46,564 nt of DNA from Candidatus Sulfotelmatobacter sp. (GTDB lineage Bacteria; Eisenbacteria; RBG-16-71-46), in NCBI GenBank assembly GCA_035498555.1, contig DATKAB010000062.1, forward strand, positions 1 to 46,564. The letters run 5' to 3'. Below the pieces are notes generated by a model that saw only the letters and a list, made by a program, of their open reading frames with translations, did not search any database and had not been told where the DNA came from. The first letter of the stretch is position 1. The number at the start of each line of letters is the position of its first letter. Shown piece after piece: positions 14,355-23,961 of the stretch. The position numbers and the translations under genes were made by a program.

Positions 14355-15395
14355 GTGAATCTCGACTCGGCGAAGTGCTCAGAAGGGTGGCCCAAACGAG
14401 GCGGAACTTGCTGTGGACGGCCAAGACTGGCTGTCCAGTGCCTCGGCGTCTTGTCGTTCGCGCTGGCGCTCTGCGGCTGCGCTCCCAAGCCCACCGCGCC
14501 CGCGGTCACTCCACCTGTTCAGCGCCTGCCCTACAGTTCGGACTATCCCTTCGCATGGGCACCCGACGGTCGCACAATTGCGTTCCGCCGGATCATCCGC
14601 AGCAGCGCCGGACCGCCTGGAATCTACGTGGTCCAGCTCGGCGACCATCATCCCAGGTATCTCTTCCCCGCCAATCTCCTTTGGCCCATGAACGGATCCT
14701 TCTCGTCGGATGGCCGCCGGCTGCTGCTCTCGTATGCCCTGCGGATCTACATCATCGACGTGGCGTCGGGGAAGTGGATTGCTCCGTTCTACACGCCAAG
14801 CGGTGAGGATTTTCCGGTCTGGACGAACGGCGACAATTCAATCATGTACATCCGCGTCTATGGCGACGTGTCACTGCCTCCGGATTCGTTCGGGGTCCAC
14901 GCTTACAGCCTATTGGACCACGTGGACCGAGCGGTTTCTTCGGCTGGAGAGGTGCTCAGGGCTTCGGACATCTGCTCGCTGCCCATCGATGGCCGCGTCG
15001 CGCTCGAAAACTTCGGGCCCCAGGGCCATAGAATTTTGCTCGCGCGCCCCGACGGCTCCGACCTCGCAACGCTCTTTCAGGCCGATCCTGGCCGACTCAT
15101 TTCAGACCTCCAGCCGTTCCTCGACCCAGTCCGCGGACGCCGCGGAGTCGTGTTCGGCTACGGACCGTACCCCGCGGTCTTCAAGAGCTACTTTGCTGAT
15201 GTTTCTGGATCCCCCGCTGATTCCTTGCCAAACGTTTCCAGCCATTTCGACCGCATCTCGCCCGACGGAACGCGTGTCCTGACTGCTGGCCTCGCGCCGG
15301 GCGACTCGGTGATTTCGCTGTTCATTCGGCCGTTGCTCGACCGGCTCTCCCGGCCACCCGTTCAGGTGACATGGTGGAGCCCGCCCCAACCTTAG
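14355..15395 (+). CDS. Beta-propeller (PD40/TolB-like) lipoprotein
   Basis: 346 residues from GTG 14355. The N-terminus is rather long before a lipoprotein signal (CLGVLSFALALCGC, lipid candidate C42), so a later start is possible, but no in-frame ATG/GTG with a ribosome site was found. The body contains WD40-like PD40 repeats: YPFAWAPDGRTIAFRRI, NGSFSSDGRRLLLSYALRIYIIDVASGKW, FPVWTNGDNSIMYI, GPQGHRILLARPDGSDLATLF and HFDRISPDGTRVLTAGL. It is predicted to be a membrane-anchored periplasmic or surface propeller. It opens a block of three genes with codon use unlike the surroundings (more AGG, ATA, TTA-like and A/T-ending codons) and is followed 56 bases later by a subtilisin-like protease, so the two may be cotranscribed. 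No enzymatic residues are visible. Confidence 0.82.
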   Translation: MNLDSAKCSEGWPKRGGTCCGRPRLAVQCLGVLSFALALCGCAPKPTAPAVTPPVQRLPYSSDYPFAWAPDGRTIAFRRIIRSSAGPPGIYVVQLGDHHPRYLFPANLLWPMNGSFSSDGRRLLLSYALRIYIIDVASGKWIAPFYTPSGEDFPVWTNGDNSIMYIRVYGDVSLPPDSFGVHAYSLLDHVDRAVSSAGEVLRASDICSLPIDGRVALENFGPQGHRILLARPDGSDLATLFQADPGRLISDLQPFLDPVRGRRGVVFGYGPYPAVFKSYFADVSGSPADSLPNVSSHFDRISPDGTRVLTAGLAPGDSVISLFIRPLLDRLSRPPVQVTWWSPPQP

Positions 15396-15451
15396 CTAGC
15401 CGACGCCTACCGGAGCCGGACTGGCGCTCGGCAGCTGCTCAGGAGGTCGCA

Positions 15452-18448
15452 ATGAAGGCGCCTTTGTTTCTTGCGGCGCTGGTGCTCGCGCTCCCCGCTG
15501 ATGCGGCGGCACTCTCTTTGGCGTGGCAGAACGGATCCAAGGACATTCAATTGACGGCAGCTGCGGCGTGCACGCTCGAGGTGGTTACCGCAGCAGGTGA
15601 GATCGTCCTTCCGGCCTCTTGGCGGATGGTGTTCGCGTGCGACGACGGCCAAGGGAACGGACTTGTAATTTCGGGAATGACGGTTGCGGCGGACCCGAGC
15701 GGCGCGGCCTTCGCTGGGGAGGGCGCCGCCATCAGCAATGCTGATTCCATCGCCCACGTCACCTACGAGAACTTTTCCAGCGCTCCCGGGGTGCCATCCG
15801 CGACATCCGCCTACTACGTCGCCCGTTTGCCCGCCGCGGCAAGAGCGAAGATTGTCCTCATCGCGCCCGTCGGCGCCGGGCAGAACGAAGCTGCGGTTGA
15901 TTCCGTGACGGTCAACTTAGGCATCGGCCTCCCTCCCGTCCCCATCATGACCTCGGCGCAATGCGCTTGGTTTGGTAATAGGCTCGCGCTTGCCGCCACC
16001 GGGATAGGCCTTAATAACGTCTCCTCCGCTTACCTGTCTTCCAGCGGGCGGGACTCGACTCCTGTGCAGATCCTTGGATCGGCGCTTGGGCAGGTCGCCC
16101 TAATGTCGGCGCCCATCGCCCCGGGGCAAGCGCTGCAGTCGGCCGCGCTAACGCTCGAGTCGTCTGGCGGCGTCAGGGCCGCTGCGCAGGTACCAGCGTC
16201 GATGTCTCCAGCAGCCGCAGCTAATAGCTCCCACATTGTGATCAGGTTCTTCCCTTACAGGGCATCCCAGACGCAACTGGTAGACGAAACGCTTTCGAGC
16301 TTCTCCTTCTCGTCCCCCTCGGCGCAGGACTACCTCGCCTCCGCCGGCGTCTCTGGCCTCATCAGGCTCATACCGGAGTTCGAACATGCAGACACTAACT
16401 CCGTCAACGAGCTGGGGGAGCCGGTCCACCTCGAGGACCTCGCCGACATCTACCGCGTGGAACTTCTGCCAGGAGCCGACGCAGCTGCCGCGGAGAGTCT
16501 CCTCAAGCTGGACCCCGACCTCATGTATGTCTCCAAGGACCTCTCTCTCTCGTCGCCGTCCTACTCGCCGGCGCCCAATGACACGCTCTTCCCAGTTCAG
16601 TGGGGTCTGCAGAATCTCGGCAGCGTCTACTGCGGCGGCGAGTTCGTCGGGGCGCCCGGCCTCGACATCAACGCGCTTGGCGCCTGGGACCTCACCACCG
16701 GGCCATCTGAGATCAAAGTGGGGATCATCGACACGGGCGTCGATATTCTACATCCCGATCTCGCAGGCCACGCTGAATATGGTGTCTGCGTCGCAGATGC
16801 CTGCAAGGACACCGCAGATGCCAGTGACTATGGCAACCACGGCACAGGCATCGCCAGCATCATTGGAGCGGCCACGAACAACGTTGCCGGGACGGCCGGA
16901 GTAGCCTGGAACTCGAGGCTCATCTCTATCCGGGCCGTTGACGACCAAGCTGAGGTCAGCCCGTCTTCCGTGGCCCGCGCCTATGCGTGGGCCGACGCTG
17001 CCGGCATCGGCGTTACAAACAACGCCATCGCATCAGCGATGCATCAAACACCTCCGTACGACCCAGACATCCAAGTTCTGTACGACGCGACCTTAAACTC
17101 GTTCAACCGCGGGCATTTGCTCGTCGCAGCAATGGGCAACGAGAACGACAATCTGCCGTCGTACCCAGCAGCACTTAAGGCGCAGGTATTTGGGGTCAGC
17201 GCGGTTCTCCCCAACGGCCGCCGCTGGGACGACACCCAGATAATGACGCCGTTTGTGTGCTCTATCCCGGAATTGTACCAATGCGGGGGCTCCGTTATCG
17301 GCCCATGGAATGACATCGCCGCGCCGGGGGGACACTTCATTGCTGCTGCCAGTTTCGACAACAACTCAAACCAGGAAGGCTGGCTGGTGCCCACGCCGGG
17401 CTGCCAGCTCCAGCCGCAATTCCCACCCCCCACTGGCCTCGGATTCGGCGGCACGTCCGCCGCGTCCGCCTTTGTCACCGGTGCAGCCGTCTTGCTGAAG
17501 GACTACTGCCCTCAGCTCACAGGAGAGGACATCGCCCAAATTCTTCAACGCACCGCCAAGCCGCTGCCTGAGACGGACACCACCCTGGTTGGCCGAGGCC
17601 TGGTCAATGCGCGCGCAGCTCTGGAATTCATTCGAAGGCCCAAGTTGCTGCTTCACCTGATCGCAGACGGTGTTGGTGACCATTCGACTCCGTTTGTCTG
17701 CGTTAACCCAAACGACCCCTCGATCCCGTTGCAATTTTATGACGTTCATGCTGCCTATCCACCTTGCCCTCCGCCCCCACCGGATCCGGACTTTTGTCCC
17801 CACGACGATTCCTACATTTGCTATGTGAGGAGAATGCAGACGACTGTTACATTTCCGATCGGGTTTGCTGGGACGCCCGCTGTGTGGGTCAGGTCATCAG
17901 GCAGCAGGGGGGCTGGTGACCCAAGTTACGATACAACTTGGGGGATAGTGGTTCCGCATTATTCCCTTCTCGAGACGTTGAATACGGGGAGAGTCGTCTC
18001 AGTCAGCCCATCTCAGGTGGTCCTCGAGACCAAGGTCTATGAAGTCCACAACGCGCACAATGGCGCGTTGATGTTCACATGGCCGACAGATTTTGGCCCG
18101 TTGCATCTCGCGTACACCGCCATTGGCCCCGGCAACTCGGTCGGCGTTGACGGCAAGCCTGCGCGACACCTAAAGGTAAGCGTCATGCCCAATCCAGTCA
18201 GAGGCCAGGCGAGGATCCTGCTGGAAATTCCCAGGCGCGGGAGTCTGAGGGCGGAGGTCTTTGATGTAGCAGGTAGGTCGGTAGCCCTCCCATTCAGCGG
18301 CGTCGTCGCCGATGGGCCGATGATGCTATCACTTGATCGTAACCGGATGGCTTGGCACGGGATGCCTGCGGGGGTCTATTTCCTATCAGTATTCTTTGAC
18401 GGAGAGAAACAGGTCAGGAGATTTGTGACCCTTGCCCCAGCACACTGA
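15452..18448 (+). CDS. Subtilisin-like (S8) secreted serine protease with C-terminal sorting domain
   Basis: 998 residues from ATG 15452, chosen because AGGAGG lies 5 bases upstream and a signal peptide follows (MKAPLFLAALVLALPADAAA). The open frame extends upstream to 15371 without support. The catalytic triad is complete: D427 (VGIIDTGVDILHPDL), H463 (YGNHGTGIASIIG) and S669 (GGTSAASAFVTGAAVLL); an oxyanion Asn is present in AAMGNENDN. Residues about 255-395 look like a propeptide/inhibitor region (IVIRFFPYRASQTQLVDE...IYRVELLPGADAAAAESLL). Between the protease domain and the end lies a region with VNPNDPSIPLQFYDVHAAYPPCPPPPPDPDFCPHD, a Pro/Cys-rich linker. The C-terminal ~90 residues are a sorting domain (VSVMPNPVRGQARILLEI...AEVFDVAGRSVALPF...GVYFLSVFFDG). 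Its codon use is less GC-biased than most neighbours. It overlaps the next gene by 17 bases. Confidence 0.94.
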   Translation: MKAPLFLAALVLALPADAAALSLAWQNGSKDIQLTAAAACTLEVVTAAGEIVLPASWRMVFACDDGQGNGLVISGMTVAADPSGAAFAGEGAAISNADSIAHVTYENFSSAPGVPSATSAYYVARLPAAARAKIVLIAPVGAGQNEAAVDSVTVNLGIGLPPVPIMTSAQCAWFGNRLALAATGIGLNNVSSAYLSSSGRDSTPVQILGSALGQVALMSAPIAPGQALQSAALTLESSGGVRAAAQVPASMSPAAAANSSHIVIRFFPYRASQTQLVDETLSSFSFSSPSAQDYLASAGVSGLIRLIPEFEHADTNSVNELGEPVHLEDLADIYRVELLPGADAAAAESLLKLDPDLMYVSKDLSLSSPSYSPAPNDTLFPVQWGLQNLGSVYCGGEFVGAPGLDINALGAWDLTTGPSEIKVGIIDTGVDILHPDLAGHAEYGVCVADACKDTADASDYGNHGTGIASIIGAATNNVAGTAGVAWNSRLISIRAVDDQAEVSPSSVARAYAWADAAGIGVTNNAIASAMHQTPPYDPDIQVLYDATLNSFNRGHLLVAAMGNENDNLPSYPAALKAQVFGVSAVLPNGRRWDDTQIMTPFVCSIPELYQCGGSVIGPWNDIAAPGGHFIAAASFDNNSNQEGWLVPTPGCQLQPQFPPPTGLGFGGTSAASAFVTGAAVLLKDYCPQLTGEDIAQILQRTAKPLPETDTTLVGRGLVNARAALEFIRRPKLLLHLIADGVGDHSTPFVCVNPNDPSIPLQFYDVHAAYPPCPPPPPDPDFCPHDDSYICYVRRMQTTVTFPIGFAGTPAVWVRSSGSRGAGDPSYDTTWGIVVPHYSLLETLNTGRVVSVSPSQVVLETKVYEVHNAHNGALMFTWPTDFGPLHLAYTAIGPGNSVGVDGKPARHLKVSVMPNPVRGQARILLEIPRRGSLRAEVFDVAGRSVALPFSGVVADGPMMLSLDRNRMAWHGMPAGVYFLSVFFDGEKQVRRFVTLAPAH

Positions 18449-20214: not shown

Positions 20215-20400
20215 GCGAGGCCGCGCACTGCTCCGCTCGCGCAACGATCTGATTCCGGGATCGCCACGCCAGCCCAAGCCCGCGAGGGACGGGGTTCGCG
20301 CCACCTCACCGCCGTTTCCCTCGCGTGAATCCAACGCTGCGCGCCCTCTGCCGTTCGAGAATCGAATCCCGCCCGCGAAAATCGAGGCGAAAAAATCCTC

Positions 20401-20429
20401 TTGCCGGAAGCGGCGCGGCGAGGGATAAA
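20401..20429 (+). promoter_or_regulatory. Candidate promoter upstream of nrdJ
   Basis: TTGCCG (20401-20406) and GATAAA (20424-20429) are separated by 17 bases, the optimal spacing. This would give a 5' leader of more than 300 bases. It overlaps the left arm of the hairpin at 20418-20461, so the promoter and a full-length RNA hairpin cannot both be right; if this is the promoter, the dyad acts as DNA, if at all. Confidence 0.35.
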
Positions 20430-20461
20430 AGCGGTCACCGTCGGTAGTGATCGACCCTCGC
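20418..20461 (+). other. Composite hairpin in the nrdJ upstream region
   Basis: An outer perfect 7-bp stem (GCGAGGG 20418-20424 with CCCTCGC 20455-20461) and an inner 6-bp stem (GGTCAC 20433-20438 with GTGATC 20447-20452, one G-U) are separated by an asymmetric internal loop (ATAAAAGC on the left, GA on the right) and closed by an 8-base loop. Two stems around a purine-rich asymmetric loop are typical of folded regulatory RNAs. A conserved nrdJ-associated RNA motif has been described from environmental sequences; whether this is an example cannot be judged by eye. Confidence 0.4.
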
Positions 20462-20735
20462 GAACCGGCGGGCAGCGCTTTCCAAATCACGCGAACGACG
20501 AAGCACCGAGCAGCAGCAGTCGTAGCGGGTCAGCCCGCGCGGGCGTCGAGGTGTCTCTTGCCCTCCTCGCCACCGCGGTCTGGCTGAAGAGCAGGGGGCG
20601 CGGCAGCCACGCGTCGGTTCGGAATCGAGACACAGCAGGATGCGCCTGGCCGCGCGAGCGGCTCACGCGTCTCTGATCGGTTCACGAAGCGCCGATCGCC
20701 GCGAACTCCGCACGGGGAAGTCGCCGCATCCGCGA

Positions 20736-20751
20736 GGGACAGGGAGGTCCC
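20736..20751 (+). promoter_or_regulatory. Ribosome site of nrdJ displayed in a hairpin loop
   Basis: GGGAC (20736-20740) can pair with GTCCC (20747-20751), leaving AGGGAG in the loop; the ATG of nrdJ follows directly at 20752. The Shine-Dalgarno sequence would thus be held in a hexaloop with the start codon abutting the stem. Confidence 0.4.
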
Positions 20752-23700
20752 ATGACGCAGAGTTTGATTCACGACGTGCCCGCCACCGATTCGTCGAACG
20801 CTCCCACCACCGCCGGACTTCACGTTCCCCGCCGCTACACGAAGCGCGGCGTGAATCCGCTGGACGAGATTCTGTGGGAGAAACGCCGCACCGTCATTTC
20901 GAACACCGACGGCTCGGTGGTCTTCCAGATGGACGACGTCGAGGTGCCGAAGTCATGGTCGCAACTCGCCACCGACATCGTGGTGAGCAAGTACTTCCGC
21001 AAGGCCGGCCTGAAGGGCGCACCGGGCCACGAGACCAGCGTGCGCCAGGTTGTGCATCGCATCGCGCACACCATCCGCGTCACGGGCGAGCAGCAAGGCG
21101 GCTACTTTGCCAGCGCCGAAGACGCCGAGGCGTTCGAAGCCGAGCTCGCCTATCTGCTGGTGCACCAGATCGGCGCGTTCAATTCGCCAGTGTGGTTCAA
21201 CTGCGGCCTGTGGCACGAATACGGGATCGAGGGCTCGGGCGGAAATTTCAGCTGGGATCCCGACGCCGCCGCCGTGCAGGTCACCAAGGACTCCTATTCG
21301 CGCCCGCAGGTGTCGGCGTGCTTCATCCAGTCGGTGGACGACGATCTTATGTCGATCTTCGAGCTGGCCAAGAATGAAGCGCGCGTCTTCAAGTTCGGCA
21401 GTGGCACGGGGAGTAATTTCTCGCGACTGCGCGGCCGCATGGAGAAGCTCTCGGGCGGCGGCACCTCGTCGGGGCTGATGAGCTTCCTCGAAGTGCTCGA
21501 TCGCGGTGCCGGTGCCACCAAGTCGGGCGGCACCACGCGGCGGGCGGCCAAGATGGTGGTGCTCGACGCGGACCACCCCGAGATCGTCGACTTCGTCCAG
21601 TGGAAGGTGCGCGAGGAGCGCAAGGTCGGCGCGCTGATCGCCGCCGGCTATTCCTCGGACTTCAACGGCGACGCCTATCAGACCGTCTCGGGCCAGAACT
21701 CGAACAACTCGGTGCGCGCCAACGACGCGTTCATGAACGCGGTGGTGACGGACGGCGCCTGGCAGACCACCTTCCGCACCACCGGCCAGGTGCACGAGAC
21801 GCACAAGGCGCGCGAGCTGTGGCGGAAGATCGCCGAGGCCGCGTGGCAGTGCGCCGATCCGGGCGTCCAGTTCGACGACACGATCCAGCGCTGGCACACC
21901 TGCAAGGGCACCGATCGCATCAACGCGACGAATCCGTGCTCCGAATATGTGTTCTTGGACGACACCGCCTGCAATCTGGCCAGCGTCAATCTCATGAAGT
22001 TCCTGGGCGACGACGGCAGCTTCGACGTGGACGGCTACAAGCACGCCAATCGCGTCTTCTTCCTGGCGCAGGAGATCTTGGTCAGCTTCGCGTCGTACCC
22101 GACCGAGAAGATTGCGCAGCGGTCGTACGAATACCGGCCGCTCGGGCTCGGCTACGCCAATCTCGGCACGCTGCTGATGGTGCAGGGGCTGCCCTACGAC
22201 AGCGACGCGGCACGCGCCTACGCCGGCTGCGTCACCGCGATGATGACCGGCGAGGCCTACGCGCTCTCGGCCGAGATGGCGGCCAGCAAGGGAACCTTTG
22301 CGGGATACTCGAAGAACCGCGACAGCATGCTCGACGTGATGCGGCAGCACCGCGAGGCGGCGCGCTCGATCGACAGCGCGTTCGCTCCGCGCGAGCTGCG
22401 CGCGGCGGCGATCGAGGCCTGGGATCGCGCGATGGCGCTCGGCATCATGCACGGCTACCGCAACGCGCAGGCCACCGTGCTGGCGCCGACCGGCACCATC
22501 GGCCTGCTGATGGACTGCGACACCACCGGCGTCGAGCCTGACTTTGCACTCGTCAAGTTCAAGAAGCTGGCGGGCGGCGGCTACTTCAAGATCGTCAATC
22601 AGTCGGTACCACTGGCGCTGCGCCGGCTCGGCTACACCGATCAGGCCGTCGATCGCATCGTGCGCTACGCGGTCGGCTCGGGCTCGTTCGACGAGGCGCC
22701 GCACGTCAATCGCAGCACGCTCATGCACAAGGGGCTGCTCGACGAGGAAGTCGATCGCCTCGAGAACGCGCTGCCCGGCATGCTCGACATCCGCTTCGCG
22801 TTTTCGCGCGGCATGATGAGCGACGAGACGCTGACGCGCCTCGGCGTGAGCCAGGCCGAGCGCGAGAAGCCGACGTTCTCGGCGCTCCCGTTCCTCGGCT
22901 ACACCGACGAGCAGATCGAGGCGGCCAACGCGCACATCTGCGGCAGTCTCACCATCGAGGGGGCGCCGGGACTCAAGGCTGAGCACTACGCGGTGTTCGA
23001 CTGCGCGAATCGCTGCGGACCGAAGGGCAAGCGCTTCATCCAGCCGATGGGCCACATCCGCATGATGGCGGCGGTGCAGCCGTTCATCTCGGGCGCGATC
23101 AGCAAGACCGTGAACCTGCCCGGCGACTCGACGGTCGAGGACGTCGAGAAGATCTACTTCGATTCTTGGAAGCTGGGGCTCAAGGCGGTGGCGCTGTATC
23201 GCGACGGCTCGAAGCACAGCCAGCCGCTCGCGACCGCCAAGCGCGTCGAGAGCGCGGCCGACTCGGTGACGCCGCCCAAGCTGCGCCGCCGCCGGCTGCC
23301 CAAGCGCCGCCACGGCTTCACGCAGGAGGCGCGCATCGGCGGTCACAAGGTGTTCCTGCGCGCCGGCGAGTACGAAGACGGCACGCTCGGCGAGATCTTC
23401 ATCGACATGCACAAGGAGGGCGCGGCGTTCCGCAGCATGATGAACTGCTTCGCCATCGCCGTGTCGATGGGGCTCCAGTACGGCGTGCCGCTCGAGGATC
23501 TGGTGGATCAGTTCTGCTTCACGCGCTTCGAGCCACACGGGCGCGTCGACGGGCACGACAACATCCGCGCCGCCACCAGCGTCGTCGACTACGTGTTCCG
23601 CGTGCTCGGGCTCGAGTACCTGAACCGCACCGATCTCGCCCACATCATCGACGAGAGCCTCACCGGCCAGCCGCGCCCGCGCGCCACCGATCGGCCGGTC

Positions 23701-23961
23701 GGCAAGGAGCATCGCCAGGAGACCAACGGCCATGCCGCCGAGTCGGCGCCGGTCGGCGATCCGTTCGCGCCCGCGGCGATCGATCGCGGCGCGCCGGGCG
23801 GCAATCGGGTGGCGGCGGTGGCCGGCGAAGGCGGCATCAATCAGCAAGCCTCGAAGTTCTCGGGCGACGCGCCGATTTGCGACGTGTGCGGCCACATCAC
23901 GATTCGCAACGGCACCTGCTACAAGTGCCTCAATTGCGGAAACTCGCTGGGGTGTTCGTAA
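20752..23961 (+). CDS. nrdJ: Adenosylcobalamin-dependent (class II) ribonucleotide reductase
   Basis: 1069 residues, in the range of long bacterial NrdJ. It reduces ribonucleotides to deoxyribonucleotides with a radical from adenosylcobalamin and needs no oxygen. Visible features: the N-terminal segment [33 protein letters not shown] and [12 protein letters not shown], holding one of the redox cysteines; [14 protein letters not shown]; the active-site [21 protein letters not shown] with C396; [39 protein letters not shown]; a TSCPD domain near residues 855-960 ([51 protein letters not shown]); and a C-terminal cysteine-rich tail (C1043, C1046, C1056, C1059, C1062), probably for reduction by thioredoxin or metal binding. 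No class I nrdAB or class III nrdD appears nearby. The start is supported by an AGGGAG site. Confidence 0.96.

Follow-up and report, generated by a model that had tools for sequence, protein, structure and literature searches.

What occupies the 537 bases that separate the stop of an upstream open reading frame (20214) from the ATG of nrdJ (20752)? The gap lies in a window of 46,564 nucleotides, by which we mean the whole stretch of Eisenbacteria DNA that was analysed, and the preliminary description took all of it for a structured region. The gap and a structured leader within it stand, the latter on the evidence of covariation. The real structure starts only near position 20436, however, and the whole 537 nucleotides fold only slightly better than shuffled versions (z −1.80). 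The GC content of the leader region is 68%, and at the DNA level its similarity to other DNA is limited to short matches of 83–84%. The features that frame the gap are as follows.

20214: stop of the upstream open reading frame, left edge of the gap.
20401–20429, + strand: putative promoter, with a −35-like TTGCCG (20401–20406), a −10-like GATAAA (20424–20429) and a 17-nt spacer; a CTTG...TATAAA-like pair stands at equal distance in aligned relatives.
20752–23961, + strand: nrdJ, encoding an adenosylcobalamin-dependent (class II) ribonucleotide reductase; NCBIfam NF005122/TIGR02504 above cut-off, Pfam PF02867 and PF08471.

The NCBIfam and Pfam assignments bear out the earlier proposal that the product of nrdJ depends on cobalamin. 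Further upstream, at 15371–18448, lies a gene for a subtilase-family (S8) peptidase of 1025 amino acids. The same genome also encodes another large chain of ribonucleotide reductase, a short one of 590 amino acids (G000:C73:395-2167, L180), and a relative (G017:C373, L028) has a second nrdJ-like gene that is 59% identical and contains one in-frame TAG. The nrdJ gene of another relative (G001) carries a LAGLIDADG-domain intein (L032:2668-3777) at about residues 394–399 of the window protein. Split matches point to an nrdJ intein at the equivalent place in five more genomes (G003, G005, G006, G007 and G019), and the window nrdJ has none.

A promoter-like element within the gap

The preliminary description had singled out a two-part hairpin at 20418–20461. 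This can be drawn on paper (GCGAGGG/CCCTCGC, 44 nt, −19.1 kcal/mol) and, taken alone, has a z-score of −3.25, but we reject it as a functional structure. In each of 60 dinucleotide shuffles of the region, some 44-nt window equals or exceeds it in stability; in addition, the pairing of its arms is not conserved in relatives, and its ATAAAAGC internal loop coincides with a −10-like box. Aligning the leaders of relatives, as had been proposed, brought out compensatory changes in other helices, chiefly Pa and P3 (below).

The −10-like box holds the same relative place in 16 of 16 aligned leaders. It reads TATAAA in most relatives and GATAAA/ATAAAA in the window, with a conserved CTTG upstream. The promoter region does not match the strict sigma-70 consensus; taken as a promoter, the element would place the start of transcription near 20436. 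The 5′ arm of the hairpin at 20418–20461 is probably not transcribed, since it overlaps the −10-like box and the putative start lies at about 20436. In many relatives an inverted repeat, CGGTG...CACCG, surrounds the −10 box (20415–20442 in the window, where it is degenerate), and may act as an operator or belong to the start region.

A covarying leader confined to one family

Sixteen leaders from the family of uncultured bacteria to which the window genome belongs share a folded, presumed 5′ untranslated region beginning at about 20436. A hairpin at its 5′ end (Pa) is followed by the helices P1, P2 and P3, which form a three-way junction, and by a hairpin that contains the Shine-Dalgarno (SD) sequence. 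In every case the leader directly precedes nrdJ and is accompanied by the conserved promoter-like element, from which its putative start is taken. Its parts in the window are listed here.

20438–20471, + strand: 5′ hairpin Pa, CCGTCGGT (20438–20445) with ACCGGCGG (20464–20471), the loop carrying a conserved (A)CUCCUC motif; 8 pairs, 7 of them compensatory over 16 leaders; also found by RNAalifold without structural input.
20478–20483, + strand: 5′ strand of P1, CUUUCC, which closes the three-way junction; CCUUCC/GGAAGG in relatives; in G006 both bases of a U-A pair are changed, giving A-U.
20490–20527, + strand: hairpin P2, CGC..ACGAC (20490–20499) with GUCGU..GCG (20519–20527); RNAalifold consensus, weakly defined outside the main group.
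20529–20584, + strand: long hairpin P3, 20529–20545 with 20568–20584; 15 pairs counted, 14 compensatory, 83% of cells paired.
20590–20712, + strand: insertion of about 115 nt between P3 and the 3′ strand of P1, in the window genome only; a gap in 15 of 15 aligned relatives.
20715–20720, + strand: 3′ strand of P1, GGGAAG, complementary to 20478–20483; GGAAGG in relatives.
20736–20751, + strand: SD hairpin GGGAC-AGGGAG-GUCCC, abutting the ATG; kept across the family, and in each genome found almost exclusively at nrdJ.

We call the leader a real structure because of its covariation and not its folding energy. Across the 16 leaders, compensatory double changes occur in 21 of the 23 pairs of Pa and P3 (0 of 500 shuffles), and 85.6% of the cells of these helices are paired, as against 65.5% in shuffled and 32–45% in slid alignments. 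The shared helices were first recognised by eye, and so were the registers of Pa and P3; strand swaps, RNAalifold and covariance models provide the independent checks. For the 5′ strands of both P3 and Pa, the partner from the same leader beats partners swapped in from others (0 of 20000 permutations each). Seven leaders were also aligned with MAFFT without guidance, and from this alignment RNAalifold returned Pa, P1, P2, P3 and three pairs of the SD hairpin, with compensatory changes in 21 of 47 pairs. Conserved secondary structure with compensatory changes is one mark of a cis-regulatory leader RNA. Few unpaired bases of the leader are strictly conserved.

Cells with G-U pairs outnumber those with C-A (31 against 16), which fits an RNA transcribed from this strand and argues against reading the inverted repeats as DNA operators with no RNA structure. 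The palindrome-like sequence around the −10 box of many relatives is what would favour operators; P3, a long hairpin of variable sequence, is unlike one, and we consider this reading very improbable.

Covariance models were used to follow the motif through other genomes. The first was built from five leaders, with that of the window entered without its private insertion of about 115 nt, which splits or misplaces the match in the window genome. (The insertion has predicted hairpins of its own.) This model recovered three leaders that it had not seen (G006, G004 and G003) at E-values of 2.4e-21 to 9e-21. With a second model, held-out leaders were found in G011 (4e-9), G005 (7e-9), G016 (5e-7), G001 (3e-6) and G019 (4e-4), and weakly in G013 (0.04). 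Strong matches occur once per genome, at nrdJ alone and in the family of the window genome alone: none stands before another gene of the family, other families of the class and phylum gave no convincing match, and none was found outside the family among 385 genomes (20 of which are the family itself) with stricter filters that may lose weak members. A single weak match was seen in G026 (E 3e-4), and an extra copy in G015 (C359) has no open reading frame starting after it on the same strand. Among 80 nrdJ loci from other phyla, the best match (E 0.011) falls inside the nrdJ match and not before it.

A distribution so specific to gene and family, together with a paired core that is conserved while its sequence varies, could mean that a regulatory protein binds here, for instance the reductase itself in autoregulation. 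Against this, no candidate RNA-binding partner was identified, and we think it unlikely.

The Shine-Dalgarno hairpin and a possible long-range switch

The hairpin that holds the SD sequence directly against the start codon had been pointed out in the preliminary description, and is confirmed as GGGAC-AGGGAG-GTCCC in the window DNA. Most relatives have GGACC-AGGGA-GGTCC or GGACC-AGGAG-GGTCC, while the hairpin is weaker, shorter or altered in G004, G006, G007 and G012. A pattern search of 20 family genomes gave at most two matches per genome, mostly the nrdJ site, and every match to the GGACC-AGGGA/AGGAG-GGTCC form was an nrdJ site. This near-uniqueness to nrdJ rules out a generic feature of these genomes. 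The structure of the leader thereby overlaps the ribosome-binding site, a further mark of a cis-regulatory leader RNA.

Two strands could connect this hairpin with the 5′ end of the leader.

20455–20462, + strand: Pa-loop strand CCCUCGCG, able to pair with 20731–20738; 7 of the 8 main-group leaders have 8–10 bp of complementarity in the corresponding position, with weak covariation.
20731–20738, + strand: CGCGAGGG, partner of the Pa-loop strand by complementarity; its last three nucleotides also belong to the 5′ arm of the SD hairpin.

In those seven leaders the CUCCUC-like stretch of the Pa loop is complementary to a CGCGAGG(A/G)-like sequence lying just before the 5′ arm of the SD hairpin or overlapping it. 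G006 has the partner 16 nt farther upstream, and the long-range helix is absent from genera g2 and g12. The CCCUCGCG/CGCGAGGG pairing of the window differs from other leaders by a U-A to C-G double change. Over the whole helix 2 of 9 pairs covary, a figure reached by 57 of 500 shuffles, and nominal per-leader shuffle p values in the main group are 0.02–0.14.

In predicted ensembles, which contain no pseudoknots, some leaders, that of the window among them, fall in the state with Pa and the SD hairpin (0.92 and 0.90 in the window), and in others the long-range state dominates, as in G003 (0.99) and G007 (0.98). On these predictions the long-range helix is likely to compete with the SD hairpin; in G002 and G010 the two can coexist because their strands do not overlap. 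The leader holds no terminator-like site, which makes translation the likelier level of control.

Restriction to one family and one gene would also fit a structured leader that does not switch, in which a hairpin at +1 protects the 5′ end of the mRNA and the SD hairpin fixes the level of translation. Pa begins about 2 nt past the putative start, as such a leader would have it, and the covariation lies mostly in Pa and P3 and not in the competing pairing. Conservation of the anti-SD-like loop and its SD-adjacent partner in most main-group leaders argues the other way, as does the predicted dominance of each alternative fold in some relatives, and we regard a leader of this kind as rather unlikely.

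Proposed control of nrdJ and comparison with known systems

The Rfam covariance searches that had been suggested, including those for the cobalamin and nrdJ motifs, gave no credible match at the leader. For the window leader there was none at the gathering score or at a permissive E-value, and for 17 sequences from relatives none was credible. The Cobalamin model (RF00174) does not match at the nrdJ leader; its sole match in the genome is a canonical cobalamin riboswitch on another contig (G000:C170:111-251, L183), followed by a gene that by eye reads like a TonB-dependent receptor. Across the 20 family genomes the nrdJ RNA model (RF03034) produced no match over its cut-off and none at the nrdJ leader. 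The earlier remark that no B12 box was recognised, and that a different or new regulatory RNA was possible, is thus upheld by the lack of an Rfam match and by the strong covariation. The nrdJ leader RNA is previously undescribed and new at the level of the family. Our literature search found no paper naming both Eisenbacteria and riboswitches.

Bacterial reductase genes are usually controlled by NrdR. The NCBIfam model for this protein finds nothing in the window genome (completeness 100); nine of 14 control genomes were positive. No NrdR box was found at the promoters.

The explanation that we favour, and hold to be reasonably probable, is that a cis-regulatory 5′ leader RNA, specific to the family, controls the translation of nrdJ, the Pa loop pairing just upstream of the SD sequence and either competing with the SD hairpin or stacking on it. 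Transcription would start near 20436, and the leader would fold into Pa, the three-way junction and the last hairpin, which encloses the SD sequence. The loop of Pa, with its conserved ACUCCUC... (CCCUCGCG in the window), could then pair with the CGCGAGG(A/G) sequence before the SD hairpin or overlapping its 5′ arm. On sensing a signal, the folded part would tilt the equilibrium of that hairpin, with translation low when it is closed and high when it is opened. In this way the leader probably sets the amount of NrdJ made; both the translational control and the direction of the switch are what we infer. The covariation of Pa and P3, the recovery of held-out leaders, the excess of G-U over C-A cells, the near-unique SD hairpin, the predicted dominance of each fold in some relatives, the lack of a terminator-like site and the failure to find NrdR or its boxes all favour this explanation. 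The weak long-range covariation, the absence of the long-range helix from two genera, the altered SD hairpin of four genomes, the scarcity of conserved unpaired bases and the confinement to one family and one gene count against it.

As a special case of this explanation, the leader might be a metabolite riboswitch of a new class, with the junction as aptamer (for AdoCbl, another cobamide or a nucleotide perhaps) and the SD hairpin as expression platform. The architecture of junction, ribosome-binding-site hairpin and competing long-range helix suggests this, as do the gene context and the failure to find NrdR, and the canonical cobalamin riboswitch elsewhere in the genome means that RNA control of B12 functions exists there. 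Confinement to one gene in one family speaks against it, and so do the few strictly conserved unpaired positions, unlike those of most aptamers; we see it as a lesser possibility. More doubtful still is the fuller claim: that the leaders form a new class of riboswitch, responsive to a cobamide or a nucleotide, through which a lineage lacking NrdR exerts direct control over the translation of its class II reductase.

Ribonucleotide reductase supplies the precursors of DNA, and a conserved structured nrdJ leader in a genome where no NrdR was found suggests that their synthesis is under the control of RNA. A ligand, if one came to light, would show how the reductase gene itself monitors B12 or nucleotide status. 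An alignment and covariance models are available, and make the motif directly testable.

Known systems resemble the leader in part. Control by NrdR and its boxes, which have been described at nrdRJ (PMC3848588), differs in that the window genome has neither a detected NrdR protein nor a promoter box. The nrdJ RNA motif (RF03034), annotated in Streptomyces (PMC8079986, PMC8388888), is likewise a structured RNA upstream of nrdJ, but has 80 positions against about 195 in this leader. With the cobalamin riboswitch (RF00174) the leader shares a place before a B12-related gene, a loop interaction near a ribosome-binding-site hairpin and plausible translational control; it differs in going unmatched by the covariance model, which finds the true riboswitch of this genome on C170. 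In P. acnes it is the alternative reductases nrdAB and nrdDG, and not nrdRJ, that have cobalamin riboswitches upstream (PMC3848588). While it matches no described family among those searched, the nrdJ leader is like the SD-sequestering translational leader RNAs in holding its SD sequence in a hairpin beside the start codon, together with a competing pairing.
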